This document shows, one piece after another, positions 1,699 to 54,632 of a DNA stretch of 54,923 nucleotides. The stretch spans positions 33,198 to 88,120 of the forward strand of contig JACRLJ010000105.1 in the NCBI GenBank assembly GCA_016215105.1, read 5' to 3'. Made by a program: the position numbers and the translations under genes. How positions within the stretch are numbered: position 1 is the first letter of the stretch; every line of letters starts with the position of its first letter. The DNA comes from Candidatus Hydrogenedentota bacterium (GTDB lineage: Bacteria; Hydrogenedentota; Hydrogenedentia; Hydrogenedentales; SLHB01). The notes below the pieces were generated by a model. The model had not been told where the DNA came from, searched no databases, and saw nothing but the letters and a program-made list of their open reading frames with translations.

Positions 1699-3047
1699 CC
1701 CTAACTCGTCAGATTGCAAGAATCGAAAGTTATAGGGTCGCACTTCTAGTCGTACTTCTTCTATTCACGACCTCCCTGGGAGCGTTCTACTCCATTTACA
1801 TCGGAGAGGACTTCCGTTACCCAGACGAGCGCGACTATTATAAAATTGCACGGAATGTCGCGTCATCGTTCAGCTTCAGTATTGATGGAGAGGAGCCAAC
1901 GGCTTACCGTCCTCCCGGATATCCTCTCTTTCTCGTCCCCTTTATCTTTCTTGGCGCTGATGTTTCTGGGCTTCGGATACTGAATTTTGTCCTGGTTGCC
2001 GTCTGTATGTATCTCACATACCGTATCCTAAGTGAACATGCTTCGCCGCTGACCGGAGTCATTGGGGTATTAGGGGTTGTGTGCTACCCCGTCCTATTCT
2101 ATACAGCCGGAACGCTCTACCCGCAGATACTTGGCGCCATGCTTCTTCTATTCATTATTCAACGCCTATGCAAAAGAAAAGTCTTGCTGCGTGACTTTCT
2201 AGTGGCAGGCGTAGCGTTCGGCTATCTAATCCTCACTATACCATTTTTTCTTTTTATGTTATTGCCCATTACGCTATGGCTGTATTGGATTAAAGTGAAT
2301 GGGTGCACGAAGAAGGTGGCATTCATGCTAGCCGCGGCGTGTATTCCAGTTCTTGTTTGGTGTGTCCGTAACTACACCGTGTTTGACTCCTTCGTCTTGG
2401 TCTCTACTAATTCGGGGGAGAACCTGCTACTGGGAAACTCCGAGAATAGTGCTGCCGACTCCGGTACAAATGTTGATATTGCTCATTACTGGAATGAATC
2501 GGACAAAATGGGTTTAGATGAAATAGGACGCGACAAGTACTTTCAGGCGAAGGCGATTGAGTGGATATGGAATCATAAGACCGACGCGATAGAATTGTAC
2601 TGCAAGAAGTTCTTTAATCACTTTAGCTATAGCAATGATCTGTGGGTCGGTGAAGAGGCATCACCGTTCAAAGACAAGCTTATGCTGCTTACCTACTGGC
2701 CGTTACTGATTGTTTGCATTGTTCGGATATTGATGGTAGGCCAGTTCAGACTTTCCGCTTTCGAGGTCCTCCTCGTTGGGCTCTACATCTTCAGCGGCTT
2801 GGTATACGCGGTCTTCTTTACACGTATTAGATTTCGCTTGCCGTTTGATTTTCTTCTGATATGTCTGGCAGCCATGTTCATGCGGACATTGTACGCGGCG
2901 TGGCGGTGTCGCAGTGCGGTTGACGCGAGGAGTTTGGAGGTTGGGAGCGCTAGTACAAGTCGACGGGACGAGAAATCAGCGGGCGGTTACGAGGCGGCCG
3001 TCGCGTGCATGCATTCCGAGAGAGGCGTAATCGGTGAACGAAAATGA
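1689..3047 (+). CDS. GT39-like integral membrane glycosyltransferase
   Basis: This 452-residue polytopic protein resembles the ArnT/PMT (GT39, GT-C fold) group, which use polyprenyl-phosphate sugars on the outer face of the membrane. After the first membrane helix comes the first external loop with PDERDYYKIARN, where the acidic pair is the expected catalytic site of GT-C enzymes, then AYRPPGYPLFLVPF, a typical GT39 signature. About eight to ten hydrophobic segments follow, ending with FTRIRFRLPFDFLLICL near residue 385. The last 50 residues are hydrophilic. It sits inside the polysaccharide locus, so it probably decorates a lipid-linked glycan. The family is fairly sure, the donor and acceptor are unknown. 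Confidence 0.75.
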   Translation: MYITLTRQIARIESYRVALLVVLLLFTTSLGAFYSIYIGEDFRYPDERDYYKIARNVASSFSFSIDGEEPTAYRPPGYPLFLVPFIFLGADVSGLRILNFVLVAVCMYLTYRILSEHASPLTGVIGVLGVVCYPVLFYTAGTLYPQILGAMLLLFIIQRLCKRKVLLRDFLVAGVAFGYLILTIPFFLFMLLPITLWLYWIKVNGCTKKVAFMLAAACIPVLVWCVRNYTVFDSFVLVSTNSGENLLLGNSENSAADSGTNVDIAHYWNESDKMGLDEIGRDKYFQAKAIEWIWNHKTDAIELYCKKFFNHFSYSNDLWVGEEASPFKDKLMLLTYWPLLIVCIVRILMVGQFRLSAFEVLLVGLYIFSGLVYAVFFTRIRFRLPFDFLLICLAAMFMRTLYAAWRCRSAVDARSLEVGSASTSRRDEKSAGGYEAAVACMHSERGVIGERK

Positions 3048-3117
3048 GAGAGGGCTTCGGTTCGGCTCTGTATCGCGCGGTAGTGTTGGAAGGTAGAGGG
3101 CGTGGAGGTTCGGCGAG

Positions 3118-5043
3118 ATGATCGATAAGTTCCGGTACCGGCCGGATATTGATGGTCTTCGCGGGATTGCCGTTCTAGCGGTGGTTCTGTTTCACGGTGG
3201 ATTTGGCTGCCCTGGTGGTTATGTCGGCGTGGACATGTTTTTTGTGATTTCGGGTTTCTTAATCACTTCTCTGATATGGAAAGATCTCGAAAGCGGTTGC
3301 TTCACATTCGGGCAGTTCTGGGAACGGCGTGCGCGGCGAATCGTCCCTGCGATGGTGGTGGTCACGCTTGCGACTTTGGTGGCGGGGTGGTTCTTGATGC
3401 TTCCAAGGGACTTTAGGAGTCTGGGACAGGCATCGGCGTCTCAAGCGGTTTTTGGCGCAAACATCTATTACTGGAAGGATTCCGGCTACTTTTCACGTAA
3501 CGCCAACGAGAAACCTCTGCTCCACACCTGGTCGTTGGCGGTTGAGGAGCAATTTTACATTATCGTACCGTTCCTGTTTTGGGGAATGTACCGCGCGGCC
3601 AAATTGCGTACCCGGAAAGCGGTTCTTTCGTTGCTCTCCGCCGGGTTTATCGTCAGTTTTGCCTTGAGCGTCTATGGGGTGGCGCTGCGTCTAAATGCGG
3701 CGTTTTATCTTCTACCGTGCCGCGCTTGGGAGCTGTCGCTTGGCTCGATCGTCGCCTTTCTTCCACCAGCTCCAGGGTTGTTGTGCCGTCGGTTCGTACG
3801 TGAGTTTTTCGCGCTGACGGGCCTAACTTTGATTCTTGTTCCTGTCTTCATGTACGGCCCGAAGACGCCGTTTCCAGGAGTGGCCGCACTGTCACCATGT
3901 CTTGGGGTGGCCCTGCTAATCTGGGCGAACGAACCGGTCGCGAACTGTGCGCCTACGACCGTGGGCACGCTACTCGCAACACGGTCGATAGTCTTTGTTG
4001 GCTTGATCTCGTATTCCCTCTATCTTTGGCATTTGCCGTTTCTGGCGTTTAGCCATTATTTGGCTCTTGAACCTGTTTCCGCGGGCCAGCGGGTTACGAT
4101 GTTGGGTCTCGGACTTGGATTGGCTGTCCTGTCATGGAAGTACGTCGAAACGCCTTTTCGGAAGCGAACGCTCGCAGGATCTAGGAAGTCCATGTTCGTG
4201 TTCGCGGGGTCGGGAATCGCCGCCGTTCTCGGTTGCGGCCTGCTATGTTGGAACATGCAGGGCTTTCCGCAGCGTCTCTCTTCAGAAGCGCAGGAGTTTT
4301 CCAATGCAGAAGGGGATAGTCCCTTCTACTTTAATCTCACGACCGACGACATCCGCGCCGGAAGGCTCGTCCCGATCGGAGCAACGGACTCGACGTTGCG
4401 ACCCACAGTTTTGGTTTGGGGCGATAGTCACGGCAACTCTGGTCTTGAAGAGGGATCCATCGCCTACAACGATGCGGTAATCTCCTATATTCAGAGTCAG
4501 CATATTCCCGACGTTGTTTTGATCGCCCGTTGGGGGGGATATCCCAAGATTGGGGGGAACTCCCAAGACTTCAATTCTTCACTGTTGGCGACCGTTCGGC
4601 GGCTCGTCGCCATGGGTTCCCGCCCATGGATTATGCTGGACGTTCCGAACCATTCTTTTGATGTTCCAAGAGCGCTGTGCAGCCCGATCTATTCCGTTGC
4701 ATACATTGAGTCGCACTGCGCTAAACCGACGGCATGGAATGAATTTAGCAAGAAAGATCCGGAGATCGTGGCCCAATTAGAATCCGCCGGTGGTCGAATC
4801 CTTGAGCCGAAGCCGAGATTCCTCGACCCAACAGGACAGCGTTACATCATTCAGGCCGCGGGGATTGCCCTCTATGGCGATAACCATCATCTAACGACTA
4901 AAGGTTCTAGACTAATGCTCCTGCCGTTTCTGCGCGATTCGTTGACATTAGACGAACCGTCGCCTCCGGATGTCCACCGTGTCGCGGCTGCAGCGAGCTT
5001 TCCACGCTCGATGGAAGGAGTCTTCGCAAGCAGAAAACGGTGA
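3118..5043 (+). CDS. Acyltransferase-3/SGNH fusion (OafA-type O-acyltransferase)
   Basis: The 641 residues form the usual two-part OafA architecture. The N-terminal half is a membrane acyltransferase-3 domain opening with YRPDIDGLRGIAVLAVV, with the conserved VDMFFVISGFLITSLI and the HTWSLAVEEQFY motif near residue 140, followed by about ten helices. The C-terminal part is a periplasmic SGNH esterase-like domain, with the block-I Ser in VWGDSHGN near residue 435 and the Asp/His pair in GDNHHLTTKG near residue 588. Such proteins move acetyl groups across the membrane onto O-antigen or exopolysaccharide. GGAGG lies about 11 bases before the ATG. Neighbouring methyl- and glycosyltransferases support a glycan-decorating role. 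Confidence 0.9.
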   Translation: MIDKFRYRPDIDGLRGIAVLAVVLFHGGFGCPGGYVGVDMFFVISGFLITSLIWKDLESGCFTFGQFWERRARRIVPAMVVVTLATLVAGWFLMLPRDFRSLGQASASQAVFGANIYYWKDSGYFSRNANEKPLLHTWSLAVEEQFYIIVPFLFWGMYRAAKLRTRKAVLSLLSAGFIVSFALSVYGVALRLNAAFYLLPCRAWELSLGSIVAFLPPAPGLLCRRFVREFFALTGLTLILVPVFMYGPKTPFPGVAALSPCLGVALLIWANEPVANCAPTTVGTLLATRSIVFVGLISYSLYLWHLPFLAFSHYLALEPVSAGQRVTMLGLGLGLAVLSWKYVETPFRKRTLAGSRKSMFVFAGSGIAAVLGCGLLCWNMQGFPQRLSSEAQEFSNAEGDSPFYFNLTTDDIRAGRLVPIGATDSTLRPTVLVWGDSHGNSGLEEGSIAYNDAVISYIQSQHIPDVVLIARWGGYPKIGGNSQDFNSSLLATVRRLVAMGSRPWIMLDVPNHSFDVPRALCSPIYSVAYIESHCAKPTAWNEFSKKDPEIVAQLESAGGRILEPKPRFLDPTGQRYIIQAAGIALYGDNHHLTTKGSRLMLLPFLRDSLTLDEPSPPDVHRVAAAASFPRSMEGVFASRKR

Positions 5044-5162
5044 GAACGTGAGGACCGTCAGGGGGGGAATGATGTGGACTCGATCCGCGTTTTACAAACC
5101 AGATACGGGTGAATCTATAATAGCGGTTATTCGTCTCGGTGCTGCCGGAAAGGGTAAGGCCT

Positions 5163-6188
5163 ATGCTCGCTTCGCCGTCATGTCCAGTGTGCGCTTCGGA
5201 CACGTGGATGTCACTAGGAACCCGCACGCACGCAGCTTCAGATATGGCGCATTACGATGACTACACCAATCGTCGATTTCGGATTCTTTTCGAGGTCTGG
5301 CTACCAGGGAAATCTGAGGCGACGTTTGAATCCAAGCTCTGCGAAACATGCGGAATGGTGATCTATACACCCCGTCCGACGCCAGAGGAAGTAAACGAGG
5401 GGTACCGGTATCTTTTGCAGATGCCTGTTGCACCTGGACAACGGCCCGTTTCAGAGGAAGTGCAGAGTGTACGGGCAAAGGACTTGTTCCGCATAATGTC
5501 CCGATACGCCCGTGGAGGCGCGGCCCGGGTGCTTGATTTCGGGGGAGGACGCGGTCAACTAATGACTTGCTTTGCCGACCTGGGGTGTGACTGCTTCGTG
5601 GTTGACTATTATCCGAACCCGATTCCAAAGGTGCGCAAGTTGGGTAATACACTTGATGAGCTGCCTAAGAACATGAAGTTCGACGTGGTAATCTGCAGTC
5701 ACGTTCTTGAGCGTCTGGCCGACCCATTGAGCGTGCTTGTCCAGTTACGCAGCTTGCTATCCGAGAGCGGGATACTGTATGTCGAGGTCCCTATGGAGCT
5801 TTGGCGTTGCGTACCAGTGCAAGCGCGTGCGGTAGAAGCCGTTAATCCGATAGATCACTTGAATTTTTTCACGGTGCAACCACTACGATTCCTACTGGAA
5901 CGAGCATCCTTCAGCGTAATCAGCTGCAGCATGGATGCGTACGTGCATACGAACGGAAGCAGGTTAACTGCGGTCCGTGCTGTCGCGAGGGCATCGAACA
6001 AGGTTCGTACCCGGTATCCTGATGGAGCAGCTCGGGCTACGGAACGGATCATATGCCCAGACCTGCGGTTGCGTGTTCAAATGCTCGCGATTCACCCTGA
6101 TTGGCTCTGGGCTGCGGGTCGTAGTCGCTTAATTCGCGTTCGGGAGTACTTCGCACGTCTGTGCCGTCGAGTACCGTTCGGGAGATAG
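5163..6188 (+). CDS. Zinc-ribbon class I SAM methyltransferase
   Basis: The protein starts with a zinc-ribbon-like Cys cluster (CPVC followed by CETCG) and continues into a Rossmann methyltransferase. The SAM loop is ARVLDFGGGRGQL near residue 122 and the acidic motif is FDVVICSHVLERLADP near residue 175. This layout is shared with methyltransferases of sugar biosynthesis such as the C-methyltransferase group and is common in O-antigen clusters. I chose ATG 5163, preceded by a GGAAAGGG stretch, over an in-frame GTG at 5139; the product is then 341 residues. The last 70 residues are basic and not recognisable. Glycan or nucleotide-sugar methylation is inferred from the neighbours. Confidence 0.75.
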   Translation: MLASPSCPVCASDTWMSLGTRTHAASDMAHYDDYTNRRFRILFEVWLPGKSEATFESKLCETCGMVIYTPRPTPEEVNEGYRYLLQMPVAPGQRPVSEEVQSVRAKDLFRIMSRYARGGAARVLDFGGGRGQLMTCFADLGCDCFVVDYYPNPIPKVRKLGNTLDELPKNMKFDVVICSHVLERLADPLSVLVQLRSLLSESGILYVEVPMELWRCVPVQARAVEAVNPIDHLNFFTVQPLRFLLERASFSVISCSMDAYVHTNGSRLTAVRAVARASNKVRTRYPDGAARATERIICPDLRLRVQMLAIHPDWLWAAGRSRLIRVREYFARLCRRVPFGR

Positions 6189-6816
6189 GCAAAGATTCCT
6201 CTCACCGCAACTTGTCGCTCCGATGGCAGCCCAATAGTGCAATTTCGGGTTTCTTGAGAAGATGGGCTCATTGCGCGTTCACTATGCGAGTCGGCCAACG
6301 CGAGCGAAAGGGGGCTTCGCTCTACACCACTGCTGTGACGGTGTTGCTTGGGGCGCTTTCACCCGCTTTGTTGATGGCGATTACACGATATTCCCAGTCT
6401 TTGCCGCGTTCTTGGTTGGTGAGGGTGGCTTCACGTTTGAGGGAGATGGAGACGAGCGCCCAAGCGCCGTCGGATCGCCTTATCCTCTCACCAAACGCAG
6501 AACACCAGCGTTGCCGTCCCATCATGGCTCGCGTTTGACCGCCCAAACATTTTCACCGGATTTCCAGAGCGGGAGGGACAAATGTTACGGGCGCAGTGTT
6601 CTCTTCACAGTCCACCTCGATCTTGCGGCGACGCAATGGGCGCAAAGTTTGACGAATTCATGCAACCTTTTCGTTGAAAGACCGGCTGTTGATCGCTATG
6701 ATTACAATACTGGGTTACGGGTGAGGATTGCGTGGGTTTGCCTGATTCTAGGAGGCGAGGAGAGAACGTGGATGGGGTCTATTTGCGCAGCGCAGTGGGG
6801 GGAGGAGAATCTGAGG
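6189..6816. other. Long gap before the TPR gene
   Basis: About 630 bases separate the methyltransferase from the chosen start of the TPR lipoprotein. The frame of the TPR gene stays open back to 6262, but that stretch encodes low-complexity, non-protein-like sequence and the lipoprotein signal begins only at 6817. The minus strand of 6322-6480 encodes the end of a fibronectin type III domain, listed separately. I see no convincing promoter, RNA gene or repeat in the rest. Confidence 0.6.
6322..6546 (-). pseudogene. Fibronectin type III domain remnant
   Basis: Read on the minus strand, this frame ends in a clean C-terminal half of an FN3 domain: DGAWALVS, then RGKDWEYRVIAINKAGESAP and SNTVTAVV followed by a stop. 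The tryptophan, the Y-R-V strand, the N-x-A-G-E turn and the S-x-S/N ending are diagnostic of the last strands of FN3. The N-terminal strands are missing; beyond about 6480 the frame continues only as unconvincing sequence to an ATG at 6546. FN3 repeats belong to large secreted proteins, so this looks like the tail of a lost or displaced gene. A short functional ORF is possible but unlikely. Confidence 0.6.
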
Positions 6817-51136: not shown

Positions 51137-51144
51137 CAAACGAG
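51137..51144. repeat. Left target-site duplication
   Basis: CAAACGAG here recurs at 54625-54632, directly outside the two terminal repeats. If the ends are read one base further out as GGG and CCC, the duplication is the six bases AAACGA instead. Confidence 0.8.
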
Positions 51145-51161
51145 GGTAGTGGTACATTTTG
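51145..51161 (+). repeat. Left terminal inverted repeat
   Basis: GGTAGTGGTACATTTTG is the exact reverse complement of 54608-54624. With one extra outer G the match extends to 18 bases (51144-51161 against 54608-54625). Confidence 0.85.
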
Positions 51162-51185
51162 ACGTTCGCCGCCTAATACTCACGC

Positions 51186-51695
51186 CTAGATAACGGTGGG
51201 TTTAAGGTATTGATCGATTAAGTTGACGTGCGATGGAAAGAAATTAGCGATTATTAGGGACAGCACGTCGTCGGTAGTTATGTGTTTTGTGGCAAAATGC
51301 GGCCCCCTATGAGCAATTAACTCGGCCGGCAACGGGCAACCGTTTAATTCACATCGCCTCTCTATGCCTATATGCATATGAGACAACGGTTTAATTGCGT
51401 GGGCAGATTTACTTTGTGCCTGCGCAAAGCCTTCATTTTCGTAGTCTATACGAAATCCGTTGTTTCGCCGATAATGGAAGGTATACCTAGCGGAGCGATC
51501 GGGTTGGCCGTCGTCGTATGTTTCCGTCCCCTCAAGTTGAGATGAGTCTTGAAAGGCAAGCGAAAAATCAACAACAACGAATTTTCCTGTTCCGGATAGG
51601 GTTGGGTATCTAGTAAGGGATGAGATAATTGGGTCAAGTTGGCTAGTAAAAAGGCCTTTTAGCCGCGTGATATAGCTACTTAACACGCCGGGCAA
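51186..51695 (-). CDS. Passenger protein 3, unrecognised (169 residues)
   Basis: I do not firmly recognise this protein. It starts at TTG 51695, directly on the stop of the gene before it (GTG 51686 is an alternative). The body has RYTFHYRRNNGFRIDYENEG, then PLSHMHIGIERRCELNG, and ends with ITTDDVLSLIIANFFPSHVN. The strand-rich F-R-x-D-Y followed by S-H-x-H-I-G and a helical I/FIxxFFP end recalls uncharacterised families such as DUF2290 or DUF6516, the second often seen in toxin-antitoxin-like pairs, but this is a visual resemblance only. It has no signal peptide or membrane segment and is AT-richer than the host genes. It is last in the three-gene passenger operon. Confidence 0.7.
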   Translation of the reverse strand: MPGVLSSYITRLKGLFTSQLDPIISSLTRYPTLSGTGKFVVVDFSLAFQDSSQLEGTETYDDGQPDRSARYTFHYRRNNGFRIDYENEGFAQAQSKSAHAIKPLSHMHIGIERRCELNGCPLPAELIAHRGPHFATKHITTDDVLSLIIANFFPSHVNLIDQYLKPTVI

Positions 51696-52037
51696 TTAGA
51701 ATTCTAGCCCCGTTTTATACCCTTCAGTCCAAAGTTCCCAAAGGATAACCCATCGAAGGGGATTTTCTATGTCCTGAGTATCGCCCTTCTTCCATCGGTC
51801 ATAAAAATCTTTGGACTTCAATCTATATCTCTTTTCGAGTTCGAGTAGATTTTTCCTCACCGTTTCTCGTGGCTCAATTGAGGGGAGTGGATCAATGGCC
51901 GTTGTACCGCTATTAGTGAAGGTGAACAAAACAGCACTAGTCCCATCCGTTCCCGAAGAGCGCACACATCTGGTCGGCACCGATTCGATCCGCGATGTCG
52001 TGTCGTAGGCTTTTTCAACCTGAGTGCGGTTTGACAT
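51696..52037 (-). CDS. Passenger protein 2, unrecognised (113 residues)
   Basis: No family is recognised. Its ATG lies inside the end of the upstream gene, a 23-base overlap, and its stop abuts the start of the downstream gene, so the three are tightly coupled. The first half is strand-like and Thr/Ser-rich (TDGTSAVLFTFTNSGTTAID). The second is a charged helix with KNLLELEKRYRLKSKDFYDR, then a Trp-rich WVILWELWTEGYKTG end. It has no signal peptide or metal motif. Its small size and its position between a DUF3467-like protein and a larger partner suggest an adaptor or small partner of a protein complex. Confidence 0.65.
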   Translation of the reverse strand: MSNRTQVEKAYDTTSRIESVPTRCVRSSGTDGTSAVLFTFTNSGTTAIDPLPSIEPRETVRKNLLELEKRYRLKSKDFYDRWKKGDTQDIENPLRWVILWELWTEGYKTGLEF

Positions 52038-52308
52038 TTGGCGTTACTCCCTGATCGCTTTCGATTTGATTCCTGATCTCGTCAGGCAAGAGAGCCATCT
52101 TGAATTCGTTAGAATACACGGATAAGTGCTTTGTTAATAGTGCGTTAAGTGAAGCCGCATGTTGTGGGCTCATTCTTATTATTGCTAGATCTCGACTAGA
52201 TATTTCGCCCTTGCCGTCGGAAGTCATTAAGGCAAGGGAAAGCGCAACCTCATACAGGGAAACGCTTACCCTAACCGAATTCGTGTAGATGTCTATTGGG
52301 TCGCTCAT
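52015..52308 (-). CDS. Passenger protein 1, DUF3467-like (97 residues)
   Basis: The 97 residues follow the DUF3467 pattern: a strand with DIYTNSVRVSVSLYEVALSL, then IIRMSPQHAASLNALLTKHL and a C-terminal helix. DUF3467 proteins usually show YANxVxVxxSxxEF at the start and VxMSPxHAKxLxxxL later, and both are visible here. The family has no known function. This is the first gene of the passenger operon, and its end overlaps the second gene by 23 bases. It reads away from the transposase start, so its promoter should lie within or near the end of the transposase gene. Confidence 0.75.
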   Translation of the reverse strand: MSDPIDIYTNSVRVSVSLYEVALSLALMTSDGKGEISSRDLAIIRMSPQHAASLNALLTKHLSVYSNEFKMALLPDEIRNQIESDQGVTPNVKPHSG

Positions 52309-52340
52309 AAAGTAAGTCTAACACGTTTAGAATCAAATGT

Positions 52341-53165
52341 CTACCACTCCGGCACAAGCTCCGCAACCGTCCAGACGTGATCCGTCAACCCTGCCGCCAT
52401 CGCCGGAGTAATCTTCTGCGTCCGGGGAATCCAGCAGAAGTTGTAATAGGCGAAATGCAGCGCACACGCGGCCTTAAGGTTCGCGAGCTTCTTAGAGAAC
52501 CCAAGGGCTAAACGGGTTAAACGGCGCTGGAACGTCCGTAGAGTCAAGTTCTGGCGTTCAATATGGGACGTGGTCGCTTTGGCTAAATCGGGTTTCCCTT
52601 CTAAAGGGAACTTATGGACGGCGGCCACACGAGGCGGGGCGTAGCGGCCCCGTCCTGCCTGTTCAGACTCATATTCCTTCGTGATAGCCGCATAACTTGC
52701 CTGAGTCCCGAAGAACGCCGGGACAGCCTTCTCGTAGGGCGCAAACGCGTCCGTAGAGATCTGAGTCTGGCAACCGTTCATGCACTGTTTGAGTTGGGAC
52801 ATGAAGGTCATCGTGGTATTCTCATTGCGCTTTCCGATAACCCACGTCGGTATCAGCTTCGTATTCCGCTCAAGGGCGATGAAGACATATTGATCGCCGA
52901 TGGTTGTGTCCTTCTTTTCCTCGGGCGTGAGACGGCCTTGCTTCTTGCGAACGAATGTCCAGATTTCGTCGGCTTGGATGTCCCGCAGGTCCAGCTTGCG
53001 CATGTACTGGTCTTGCAGGGACTCGCAATGCTCGCCAGCACGTTCCAGAATCTTGATGATTGTTGTTCGATGAACGTTCAGCAAGCGAGTGATTGAGCGC
53101 AGGGACATACCCTGGCAAAGCGCGTTCGCAACTTGGATTTGAAGATCGCGGGAAAGCTTGTTCAT
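52341..53165 (-). CDS. IS1-family transposase, single ORF
   Basis: From ATG 53165 the product is 274 residues, uniting in one frame what classical IS1 makes from insA and insB by frameshifting. The N-terminal part is a helix-turn-helix (ALCQGMSLRSITRLLNVHRT). The DDE part has its first Asp in IQADEIWTFVRKKQ, the second in TQISTDAFAPYEKA, and the Glu in SHIERQNLTLRTFQRRL, followed by KACALHFAYYNFCWIP-like sequence and AMAAGLTDHVWTVAELV. It looks intact. The frame extends to 53186, but AGAAAAGG just before 53165 supports that start. It is the only transposase between the terminal repeats. Confidence 0.9.
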   Translation of the reverse strand: MNKLSRDLQIQVANALCQGMSLRSITRLLNVHRTTIIKILERAGEHCESLQDQYMRKLDLRDIQADEIWTFVRKKQGRLTPEEKKDTTIGDQYVFIALERNTKLIPTWVIGKRNENTTMTFMSQLKQCMNGCQTQISTDAFAPYEKAVPAFFGTQASYAAITKEYESEQAGRGRYAPPRVAAVHKFPLEGKPDLAKATTSHIERQNLTLRTFQRRLTRLALGFSKKLANLKAACALHFAYYNFCWIPRTQKITPAMAAGLTDHVWTVAELVPEW

Positions 53166-53176
53166 GGCCTTTTCTC

Positions 53177-53205
53177 TTGACCGCAAACGAGAAAGGCCGT
53201 ATAAT
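53177..53205 (+). promoter_or_regulatory. Strong sigma-70 promoter for the intergenic RNA
   Basis: TTGACC at 53177-53182 and a perfect TATAAT at 53200-53205 are separated by exactly 17 bases, reading away from the transposase gene. It overlaps the upstream leader of the transposase, so it could also interfere with transposase expression. The first downstream terminator is at 53372-53410. Confidence 0.8.
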
Positions 53206-53211
53206 GAGGTT

Positions 53212-53410
53212 ATGAGGCACTCAGGCGGCTTGTTCGCTTGCGTGTTTAGCCCCGAAGGATTGCTTCAACAATCCCTCGGGGCGTTGCTTCGTTAAACTGT
53301 TTGAATTGGGTGGCTCCCTTGCCCGCTAGTCTAAGTTTCCTAGGCCAAGACTAGTGACTACCCGCATTCGCGCCCCACTGGTCGAGAGCCCATTTGCCAG
53401 TGGGGCTTTT
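53212..53410 (+). ncRNA. Candidate structured small RNA, about 200 nt
   Basis: The transcript predicted from the promoter at 53177 would start near 53212 and end at the terminator at 53410. It has no convincing reading frame but three strong hairpins. The first, 53249-53282, is a 13 bp stem with one A-C mismatch (GCCCCGA to TCGGGGC and GGATTG to CAATCC). The second, 53326-53354, has a 7 bp stem of CTAGTCT with AGACTAG. The third is the terminator. I do not recognise a known RNA family. It lies between the transposase and the P63C gene, so it may regulate either, or act on its own. It could instead be just a leader that is terminated early. Confidence 0.55.
53372..53410 (+). terminator. Rho-independent terminator of the candidate RNA
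   Basis: GCCCCACTGG at 53372-53381 pairs perfectly with CCAGTGGGGC at 53397-53406, a 10 bp stem with a 15-base loop, followed by TTTTCCTT. It lies about 147 bases before the P63C start, so the P63C gene probably needs its own promoter. Confidence 0.8.
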
Positions 53411-53443
53411 CCTTAACTTTCCCATATCAGTCACTCCTTAACC

Positions 53444-53483
53444 GAATGCAAGCATAGCACGTTTTTTCCAAGAATGCAAGCAT
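53444..53483. repeat. Two direct repeats GAATGCAAGCAT upstream of the P63C gene
   Basis: The 12-base word GAATGCAAGCAT occurs at 53444-53455 and again at 53472-53483, starts 28 bases apart, with related TTGCTT and AAGCATT words close by. The spacing of nearly three helical turns places both copies on one face of the DNA, as for an operator. A possible TTGCTT / TATTTT promoter (18-base gap) follows at about 53501-53530. Confidence 0.65.
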
Positions 53484-53556
53484 TATTTTTTTGTTCTTGC
53501 TTTTATGACTCGAGATGTGCTATTTTGTAAGCATTAACCAAGGGAGGATATGTACT

Positions 53557-54588
53557 ATGCTTACTGGAAGGGCAAAAGGCGGAAAAGCTAGAGCGGAGAT
53601 TCTTACACCCGAACGACGCAAAGAAATCGCCTCAAATGCGAGTCTTGCCAGATGGGCTAAGGCGAAGACAAAGCAGGATGCCGTGGAAGCGGTCGAGGAA
53701 CGCGAAGACAGAGTTCCGATCGCAAAGTGGCGTGGATTCCTGGCGCTCGAGGGGTTTGGCGAGGTGCCATGCTATGTTCTCGAGACCGGAGAACGTGTTA
53801 TCGGGAGAACGTCCGCTACTGAAATGCTGACCGGTATCAAAGGTGGTGGCGATCTCGAGAAATACTTGGGTGTCAAAGCATTTAAGCCCTTCATAGACAT
53901 TGATTTGATCCTCGAGAAGATGATGCCATTTCGTTTGCCTGAAGTTGAGGGGCTCGAGCGATCAGTGAAGGGATTGCGTTCAGATGTCCTGATCGACATT
54001 TGTAGGGGCTTCGTGGCTGCTCGAGAGGCGGCGGATAAAGATGAGCGCATGAATCTTACGCCTAGACAGAGAGAGATGGCGGGAAAAGCGGCACTCTTTC
54101 TCTCCGCAATAGCCAAAACGGGCCTAGACGCTCTAATCGATGAAGTTACTGGGTATCAATATGAACGTCCCGATGATGCTCTACAACTACGGCTTCGCGC
54201 CTATCTTAGCGAAGAAATGCGAGAGTGGGAAAAAACTTTCCCGGATCAATTGTGGAGTGAACTTGGACGGCTTACAAATTGGAAGGGCGCCATATCCAAA
54301 CGGCCAAAGTACTGGGGTAGACTGGTAAACGAGCTCGTGTATGACTACTTGGACCCAGATGTCGCCAAATGGCTAAGAGAAAACGCCCCAAGACCCAAAC
54401 ATGGGCAGAATTACCACCAATGGCTAAGCGGACAGTTTGGATTGCAACGATTGCTCGAGGTCATCTGGAAATTCATTGGTGTATCTGGTACCTGTAAAAC
54501 CCTTGCCGAATGTCGCCAGAAATGGGCCGAGATAAACGGCAAACAGGTTGTCCAAATGTACTTTGCCTATCCCCAGGATACGCAATAG
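53557..54588 (+). CDS. P63C-domain protein, transposon passenger
   Basis: From ATG 53557, with GGGAGG nine bases upstream, the product is 343 residues; the frame is open to 53515. The N-terminus has RAKGGKARAEILTPERRKEI and ASNASLARWAKAKTKQ, a basic helix motif seen on many phage and plasmid proteins. The middle has REDRVPIAKWRGFLALEGFG and GEVPCYVLETGERVI. The C-terminal P63C domain runs from YLSEEMREWEKTFPDQLWSE through RPKYWGRLVNELVYDYL to KHGQNYHQWLSGQFGLQRLL. P63C is a domain of phage and mobile-element proteins with no established activity. A terminator overlaps its stop codon. It diverges from the transposase. Confidence 0.8.
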   Translation: MLTGRAKGGKARAEILTPERRKEIASNASLARWAKAKTKQDAVEAVEEREDRVPIAKWRGFLALEGFGEVPCYVLETGERVIGRTSATEMLTGIKGGGDLEKYLGVKAFKPFIDIDLILEKMMPFRLPEVEGLERSVKGLRSDVLIDICRGFVAAREAADKDERMNLTPRQREMAGKAALFLSAIAKTGLDALIDEVTGYQYERPDDALQLRLRAYLSEEMREWEKTFPDQLWSELGRLTNWKGAISKRPKYWGRLVNELVYDYLDPDVAKWLRENAPRPKHGQNYHQWLSGQFGLQRLLEVIWKFIGVSGTCKTLAECRQKWAEINGKQVVQMYFAYPQDTQ

Positions 54589-54607
54589 GCCACCCGGCCT
54601 ATTTATT
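54584..54607 (+). terminator. Terminator at the inner edge of the right transposon end
   Basis: AATAGGCC at 54584-54591 pairs perfectly with GGCCTATT at 54596-54603 around a four-base ACCC loop, followed by TATTC. The left arm overlaps the P63C stop codon and the right terminal repeat starts at 54608, so P63C transcription would stop before leaving the element. Confidence 0.75.
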
Positions 54608-54624
54608 CAAAATGTACCACTACC
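54608..54624 (-). repeat. Right terminal inverted repeat
   Basis: CAAAATGTACCACTACC is the exact reverse complement of 51145-51161 and lies four bases after the P63C terminator hairpin arm and its tail. Confidence 0.85.
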
Positions 54625-54632
54625 CAAACGAG
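54625..54632. repeat. Right target-site duplication
   Basis: CAAACGAG repeats the eight bases at 51137-51144 and adjoins the right terminal inverted repeat. Read with the longer 18-base ends, the duplication would be AAACGA at 54626-54631. Confidence 0.8.

Follow-up and report, generated by a model that had tools for sequence, protein, structure and literature searches.

A probable cis-encoded antisense RNA opposite the transposase leader of a divergent IS1-family transposon, kept in shape but not in sequence among relatives

A small unit inside a transposon of a Candidatus Hydrogenedentota bacterium is probably a real and functional antisense RNA gene, which would control the IS1-family transposase of this element. 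In the analysed stretch of 54,923 nucleotides (the window), the strand opposite the transposase leader carries a promoter, a strongly folded region and a terminator, and this arrangement is kept in relatives of the transposase. Because distant relatives retain both the layout and the RNA shapes with unrelated sequences, the unit is probably a switch that quiets the transposon. We favour, with a probability of roughly two in three, a cis-encoded antisense RNA that would turn off transposase translation by shifting the leader from a helix between two of its segments, B and A, to a hairpin in which the ribosome site is buried (the sequestor). The features of the element are compiled in Table 1.

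Table 1. Features of the transposon and of the putative antisense RNA unit (positions in the window)
Feature	Position	Strand	Remarks
IS1-family transposon with passenger genes	51145-54624		3.5 kb, near the end of the window
Inverted ends	51145-51162 and 54607-54624		GGTAGTGGTACATTTTGA
8-bp target duplication	51137-51144 and 54625-54632		CAAACGAG; flanks the 3.5-kb element
IS1-family transposase, 274 aa	52341-53165	-	Pfam DDE_Tnp_IS1 1.7e-7, above cut-off
Three genes behind the transposase		-	DUF3467 protein and two unknowns
P63C-domain gene	53557-54588	+	
Antisense promoter	53177-53205	+	TTGACC-17-TATAAT; sigma-70, 11/12 matches
Predicted antisense RNA, about 197 nt	53212-53410	+	Conserved core of 71 nt at the 5' end (53212-53282)
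Hairpin I	53215-53247	+	Complement of the anti-sequestor segment
Hairpin II	53249-53282	+	mRNA-strand hexaloop UUGAAG, YUNR U-turn motif
Hairpin III	53302-53366 (core 53325-53355)	+	Extension; none seen in relatives
Intrinsic terminator of the antisense RNA	53372-53410	+	Stem -22.4 kcal/mol, then TTTTCC
Sequestor hairpin	53166-53198	-	GGCCUUUCUC/GAGAAAAGGCC; directly 5' of the transposase ATG
Anti-sequestor segment B of the leader	53220-53243	-	Lies opposite the 5' end of the antisense RNA
Leader segment A	53182-53209	-	Can pair with B or partly with the arm holding the Shine-Dalgarno
Candidate transposase promoter	53451-53479	-	TTGCAT-17-TATGCT; extended -10 TGCTATGCT, weak -35
24-codon ORF	53351-53425	-	Shine-Dalgarno AAGGAG; out of frame with the transposase

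The element, of which the genome contains a single copy, is bounded by perfectly complementary 19-nt arms (51144-51162 and 54607-54625). IS1 is the best NCBIfam model for the transposase (3.3e-22), with 79 bits against a curated cut-off of 100, which indicates a divergent member of the family; the residues D66, D139 and E203 are invariant in the alignment. An IS1-type DDE transposase, terminal inverted repeats and a target duplication within 8-9 bp all place the element in the IS1 family. Operator-like direct repeats (ATGCAAGCAT / TGTAAGCATT) at 53446-53455, 53474-53483 and 53526-53535 overlap candidate promoters of both transposase and P63C, each of which has a TGCTAT-type extended -10 element, and these sequence features suggest a DNA-binding regulator common to the two genes. 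The N-terminus of P63C (GGKARAEILTPERRKEIASNASLARWAK, 53557-53680) resembles that of an HTH passenger (GGLARTAKLTPERRKQISQHAIQTRWAK) at the related locus L128 (3449-3796), a small motif common to passengers of related elements.

The preliminary description of this DNA had proposed that a near-consensus promoter and a terminator bracket about 200 non-coding bases with strong hairpins, located between the transposase and its passenger gene on the strand of P63C, and this was borne out. The promoter is the sole site in the element with at least 11 of 12 matches, whereas shuffled sequences contain 0.04 such sites on average; it overlaps the ribosome site of the transposase, its -35 box falling within the sequestor loop. 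From the predicted start at about 53212, the following 201 nt (53212-53412) fold with -87.7 kcal/mol as compared to -64.4 +/- 4.8 kcal/mol for shuffled sequences (z -4.9, none of 200 as low), and the three hairpins are followed by a terminator stem of about 10 pairs (53372-53406) with its T-run. The loop of hairpin II is likely the contact loop. Length and non-coding character of the unit were likewise confirmed, with the qualification that a 27-codon ORF opens directly at the predicted +1 (ATG 53212). The leaderless peptide MRHSGGLFACVF... that this ORF would encode was considered and rejected, as its start has no counterpart in the sequences of the relatives.

Plain scans found no more promoters and terminators than expected by chance; the significance of the unit thus derives from the quality of its promoter, its fold and the layout kept in relatives, and not from scan counts. 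Rfam provided no name for the proposed RNA: at the gathering score no family matched in the window and only tRNA genes were found among the relatives, weaker matches being at chance level. DNA homologues of the antisense RNA were detected neither elsewhere in the genome nor in 68 genomes of the phylum nor in plasmids.

On the minus strand, the Shine-Dalgarno sequence of the transposase sits in the 3' arm of the sequestor hairpin. The candidate transposase promoter matches the consensus at only 7 of 12 positions, plus the extended -10, compared with 11 of 12 for the antisense promoter. From its location (53479-53451) the transposase mRNA is predicted to start at about 53444. Its leader would then measure about 280 nt, and the plus-strand RNA would be antisense to it along its entire length. 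In the window element the B:A helix has an energy of -21.1 kcal/mol (p 0.007), whereas the sequestor's 5' arm, taken by itself, does not pair significantly with the leader farther upstream (p 0.85); significance was reached with the whole of segment A. The 24-codon ORF in the leader possibly represents a leader peptide. A coding extension of the transposase itself was rejected, the upstream frame on this strand being open for 99 nt only.

Relatives of the transposase were collected in tblastn-based scans, which yielded L007, 80 and 31 loci on viral contigs, plasmid copies and, later, 79 more. L007 is the nearest full relative, with 53% identity. Of the 91 distinct transposases in the first collection, many have a good sense promoter directly before the ATG, as leaderless transcription predicts, and few have an antisense promoter. 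A subset differs from these and comprises the window element, L007, L125, L127, L128, L131 and L142, seven members which were chosen after inspection of their hairpins and antisense promoters; L160 joined later as the eighth. In the tree of transposases these members cluster, without being shown to form a single clade. The window element, L007, L127, L142 and L150 constitute a 100/97 group in a careful tree of 33 rows, and L150, the sister of L142, appears to be devoid of the layout. The leaders of the members are not alignable, with common matches of at most 10 nt, which is at chance level, and since the antisense cores gave too few aligned columns in MAFFT to build a covariance model, statistics of shape were used in its place. 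Start codons and transcription starts in the members are predictions.

An antisense promoter (8 to 11 of 12 matches) is found at the same offset in six of the seven members, among them L125, L127, L128, L142 and L007 (TTGACA-18-GATAAT), and no clear one in L131 (6/12). In all seven the start codon is preceded by a hairpin hiding the Shine-Dalgarno sequence (-10 to -26 kcal/mol), which in L007 hides the ATG as well. Segment B (-82 to -54) pairs with segment A (-48 to -16, the 5' side of the sequestor) with a Fisher p of 1e-7 over the seven members, six of which had shown the pairing by eye before testing, so that B:A of L007 and all of L160 are the unseen tests. No signal against A was obtained for the neighbouring windows -112 to -84 (0.90) and -142 to -114 (0.09), and other members of the family show a mild B:A excess (14% below 0.05). 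Starting from the predicted transcription start, the antisense strand forms two successive hairpins in eight out of eight members (z -2.9 to -6.9), as compared to a mean z of -0.5 for the same fold in 110 other family members (p 1.8e-9). In the window element this pair corresponds to hairpins I and II, to which hairpin III and the terminator at the end are added as an extension. T-run terminators are present on the antisense strand of 4/7 members and 5/82 others. Read on the mRNA strand, hairpin II has a loop starting with YUNR in 6/8 members versus 2/43 controls (p 4e-5), according to a loop rule (terminal wobble pair opened) that was set after a first, stricter definition had given 1/8. The preliminary description had regarded a lack of compensatory change as a sign of a simple leader; instead, the helices persist with unrelated sequences.

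L160, which was found after the pattern had been defined, shows an antisense promoter with 10 of 12 matches, a sequestor of -13.7 kcal/mol and B:A pairing with p 0.005, and has no proximal sense promoter. Strong sense promoters are located at -134 to -147 in L125 (11/12), L128 (12/12) and L142 (10/12), in two of which (L125 and L142) the antisense terminator lies just inside the sense promoter; for L007, L127 and L131 no sense promoter scoring at least 9 was found. In L125 (3824-4846) and L142 (3860-4921) an ATG near the sense promoter opens a frame that runs through the leader in phase with the transposase, and an N-extended transposase may exist in these two, judging from the reading frames. 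A simple ribosome-site switch does not account for these open leaders.

Several other observations were made at related loci. Genes for tRNAs or degenerate tRNAs are found shortly upstream of the transposase in L198 (2791-2865), L167 (2767-2839), L142 (3494-3588) and L131 (3540-3628), and tRNA-like genes were noted by eye at this position in L179 and L126; in L142 (element 2423-6202) and L131 they are located inside the element bounded by the terminal inverted repeats. They may be cargo or a source of transcription. L039 (5333-6386, G058:C109) harbors an element of 1054 bp whose ends are the same (GGGTAGTGGTACATTTTGA) and which has an 8-bp duplication (CAACTTTG). It contains two unknown ORFs only and no transposase, a non-autonomous cassette in a genome of the same family. 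Passengers resembling toxin-antitoxin systems often occur beside related transposases (L131 4824-5854, L023 3383-4221, L008 5300-6300); the pairs seen were SocA/Panacea, RES with an MbcA-type antitoxin and, by eye in L008, an ImmA-like protein with an HTH protein. In L166, within the 200 nt upstream of the transposase start, a direct repeat of about 90 nt in the leader ends near the start and contains a second copy of the hairpins.

From this layout we infer that the RNA is transcribed, pairs with the leader and lowers transposase expression. The proposed switch consists of a two-hairpin antisense RNA, a U-turn target loop and the B:A helix set against the sequestor. In the members, a distance of 43-52 nt separates the predicted antisense start from the ATG downstream of it; the start thus falls immediately beyond the sequestor's 5' arm, and the RNA covers B. 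When its footprint was blocked in a folding model, this arm lost its upstream pairing partner and the sequestor formed at 0.72-0.99 in all seven. In the model of the free leader the competing helix took 0.23-0.91 of the arm in five of the seven and almost none in L007 and L131, whose free leaders favour the sequestor, so that a switch there would need folding during transcription. With respect to duplex energy, with loop cost left out, every member has its stronger pairing in B:A. A new transposase mRNA, beginning about 280 nt upstream of its ATG, would thus form the B:A helix early and keep its Shine-Dalgarno sequence free. The antisense RNA, made from a far better promoter inside the ribosome site of the transposase, would contact this leader first via the YUNR loop of hairpin II and then via hairpin I, and from the geometry it would pair with B and not with A. 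Once B is occupied, A would fold back on the Shine-Dalgarno sequence, the sequestor would form, and translation of the transposase would stop. As the antisense RNA would be able to act in trans, repression should rise with copy number.

The antisense RNA might also repress the transposase independently of B:A and the sequestor, through cleavage of the duplex by RNase III, interference with sense transcription by the strong antisense promoter or a block of leader-peptide translation. The lopsided strength of the two promoters and the leader ORF with its good Shine-Dalgarno sequence are in line with this explanation, and antisense control is often accompanied by duplex decay (PMC8383071). We nevertheless regard it as unlikely, as it leaves unexplained that a segment at one fixed place, B, has its partner in A in every member and that the antisense start always falls immediately beyond the sequestor's 5' arm. 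Still less probable is an activation of the transposase by unfolding of the structure in which the leader buries its ribosome site, as in ISPpu9, which is the closest published layout and for which activation up to 12-fold was reported (PMC8450116): an RNA whose start lies upstream of the sequestor's 5' arm, as in these relatives, cannot pair with this arm, and modelling with a blocked footprint keeps or raises sequestor formation.

The preliminary description had offered control of the transposase, control of P63C and partnership with a passenger protein as possible functions of the RNA. The first of these is supported by its position antisense to the transposase leader and by the presence of the layout in seven relatives whose passengers are different or for which none is known. 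A plain upstream promoter and terminator that insulates P63C, or forms its leader, the RNA itself having no role, would fit the strand and the end of the unit before the P63C promoter region. It is very improbable, however, as the terminator separates the unit from P63C and RNAs of the same shape are found next to transposases that lack P63C, by which this explanation is contradicted. Least probable of all is a passenger RNA partnering the P63C protein, even though the RNA adjoins its gene on the same strand. Relatives of P63C are found in phages and plasmids in unrelated settings, often beside repressor genes, and no DNA similar to the RNA was found in plasmids; tblastn with the P63C protein of the window gave no match in the transposase relatives fetched by then, and Pfam scans of the passengers of several relatives detected no P63C. 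In addition, complementarity between the antisense RNA and the leader of P63C was not above expectation. Both P63C options thus fail, because the RNA follows the transposase while P63C homologues occupy unrelated settings.

A translational switch acting on the transposase can be compared with several known systems. ISPpu9 of Pseudomonas putida encodes a transposase of another family, IS110. Its antisense RNA Asr9, of about 180 nt, is directed against a 244-nt structured transposase leader hiding the ribosome site; as in our case, its promoter overlaps the transposase ribosome site and the RNA ends at a terminator, but Asr9 covers the structure burying the ribosome site and activates, and a second RNA, Ssr9, counteracts it (PMC8450116). 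The RNA described here, in contrast, spares the sequestor, whose 5' arm lies outside the antisense RNA in all modelled members, and covers its competitor; therefore repression is predicted. In the type I toxin-antitoxin system bsrG/SR4 the target is a Bacillus toxin mRNA, and overlap and RNA shapes differ from those found here. Both have in common that antisense pairing refolds, or here would refold, the ribosome-site region and that a YUNR loop provides the contact (PMC8464778); antisense systems commonly make contact through YUNR U-turns (PMC4485353, PMC8464778). IS10 RNA-OUT (PMC5006887) and, as cited in PMC8450116, the antisense RNAs of IS30 and IS200 are also cis-encoded, with an outward-facing promoter close to where the transposase begins. 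RNA-OUT, however, pairs with the transposase initiation region itself, within its first 35 nt (PMC5006887), whereas the antisense start upstream of the ATG leaves the ribosome site beyond the reach of the RNA in our members.

Inc RNA of the plasmid ColIb-P9 acts by blocking an activating structure in the leader, upstream of the repZ ribosome site (PMC8383071, PMC10724649). The proposed switch would follow this logic; a U-turn target loop is shared with ColIb-P9 and other I-complex plasmids, and the target loop of L142, UUGGCG, is the ColIb-P9 loop motif as named in the title of a reference. The B:A helix is conserved within the antisense footprint, and its competition with the sequestor, which comes from modelling, would be of the ColIb-P9 type. 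Unlike in ColIb-P9, a transposase would be controlled here and the putative activating structure is a plain helix in which no pseudoknot was found; the systems are not homologous, and any coupling to a leader peptide would be hypothetical here. No paper describing antisense control in the IS1 family came up in a search of the open-access literature, which is weak evidence of absence.

Antisense control of transposases has been worked out for few elements only, namely IS10, IS30, IS200 and ISPpu9. While the general kind of regulation is thus already known from IS10, ISPpu9 and ColIb-P9, the sequences point to a variant not described before for IS1-family elements, whose unusual parts would be a shape kept without its sequence and a sequestor spared by the geometry of the antisense RNA. 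As shapes are conserved where leaders cannot be aligned, RNA logic, and not sequence, appears to be under selection. The model offers a mutually exclusive pair of helices which can be tested experimentally. With slightly better than even odds, we consider these RNAs a so far undescribed antisense family in a branch of the IS1 family, a translational switch resembling plasmid copy control in which shapes are kept while the sequence is turned over and which would confer element-specific, copy-dependent self-limitation. If this is true, a kind of incompatibility is predicted, in which each element would silence only its own kind, as plasmids do.
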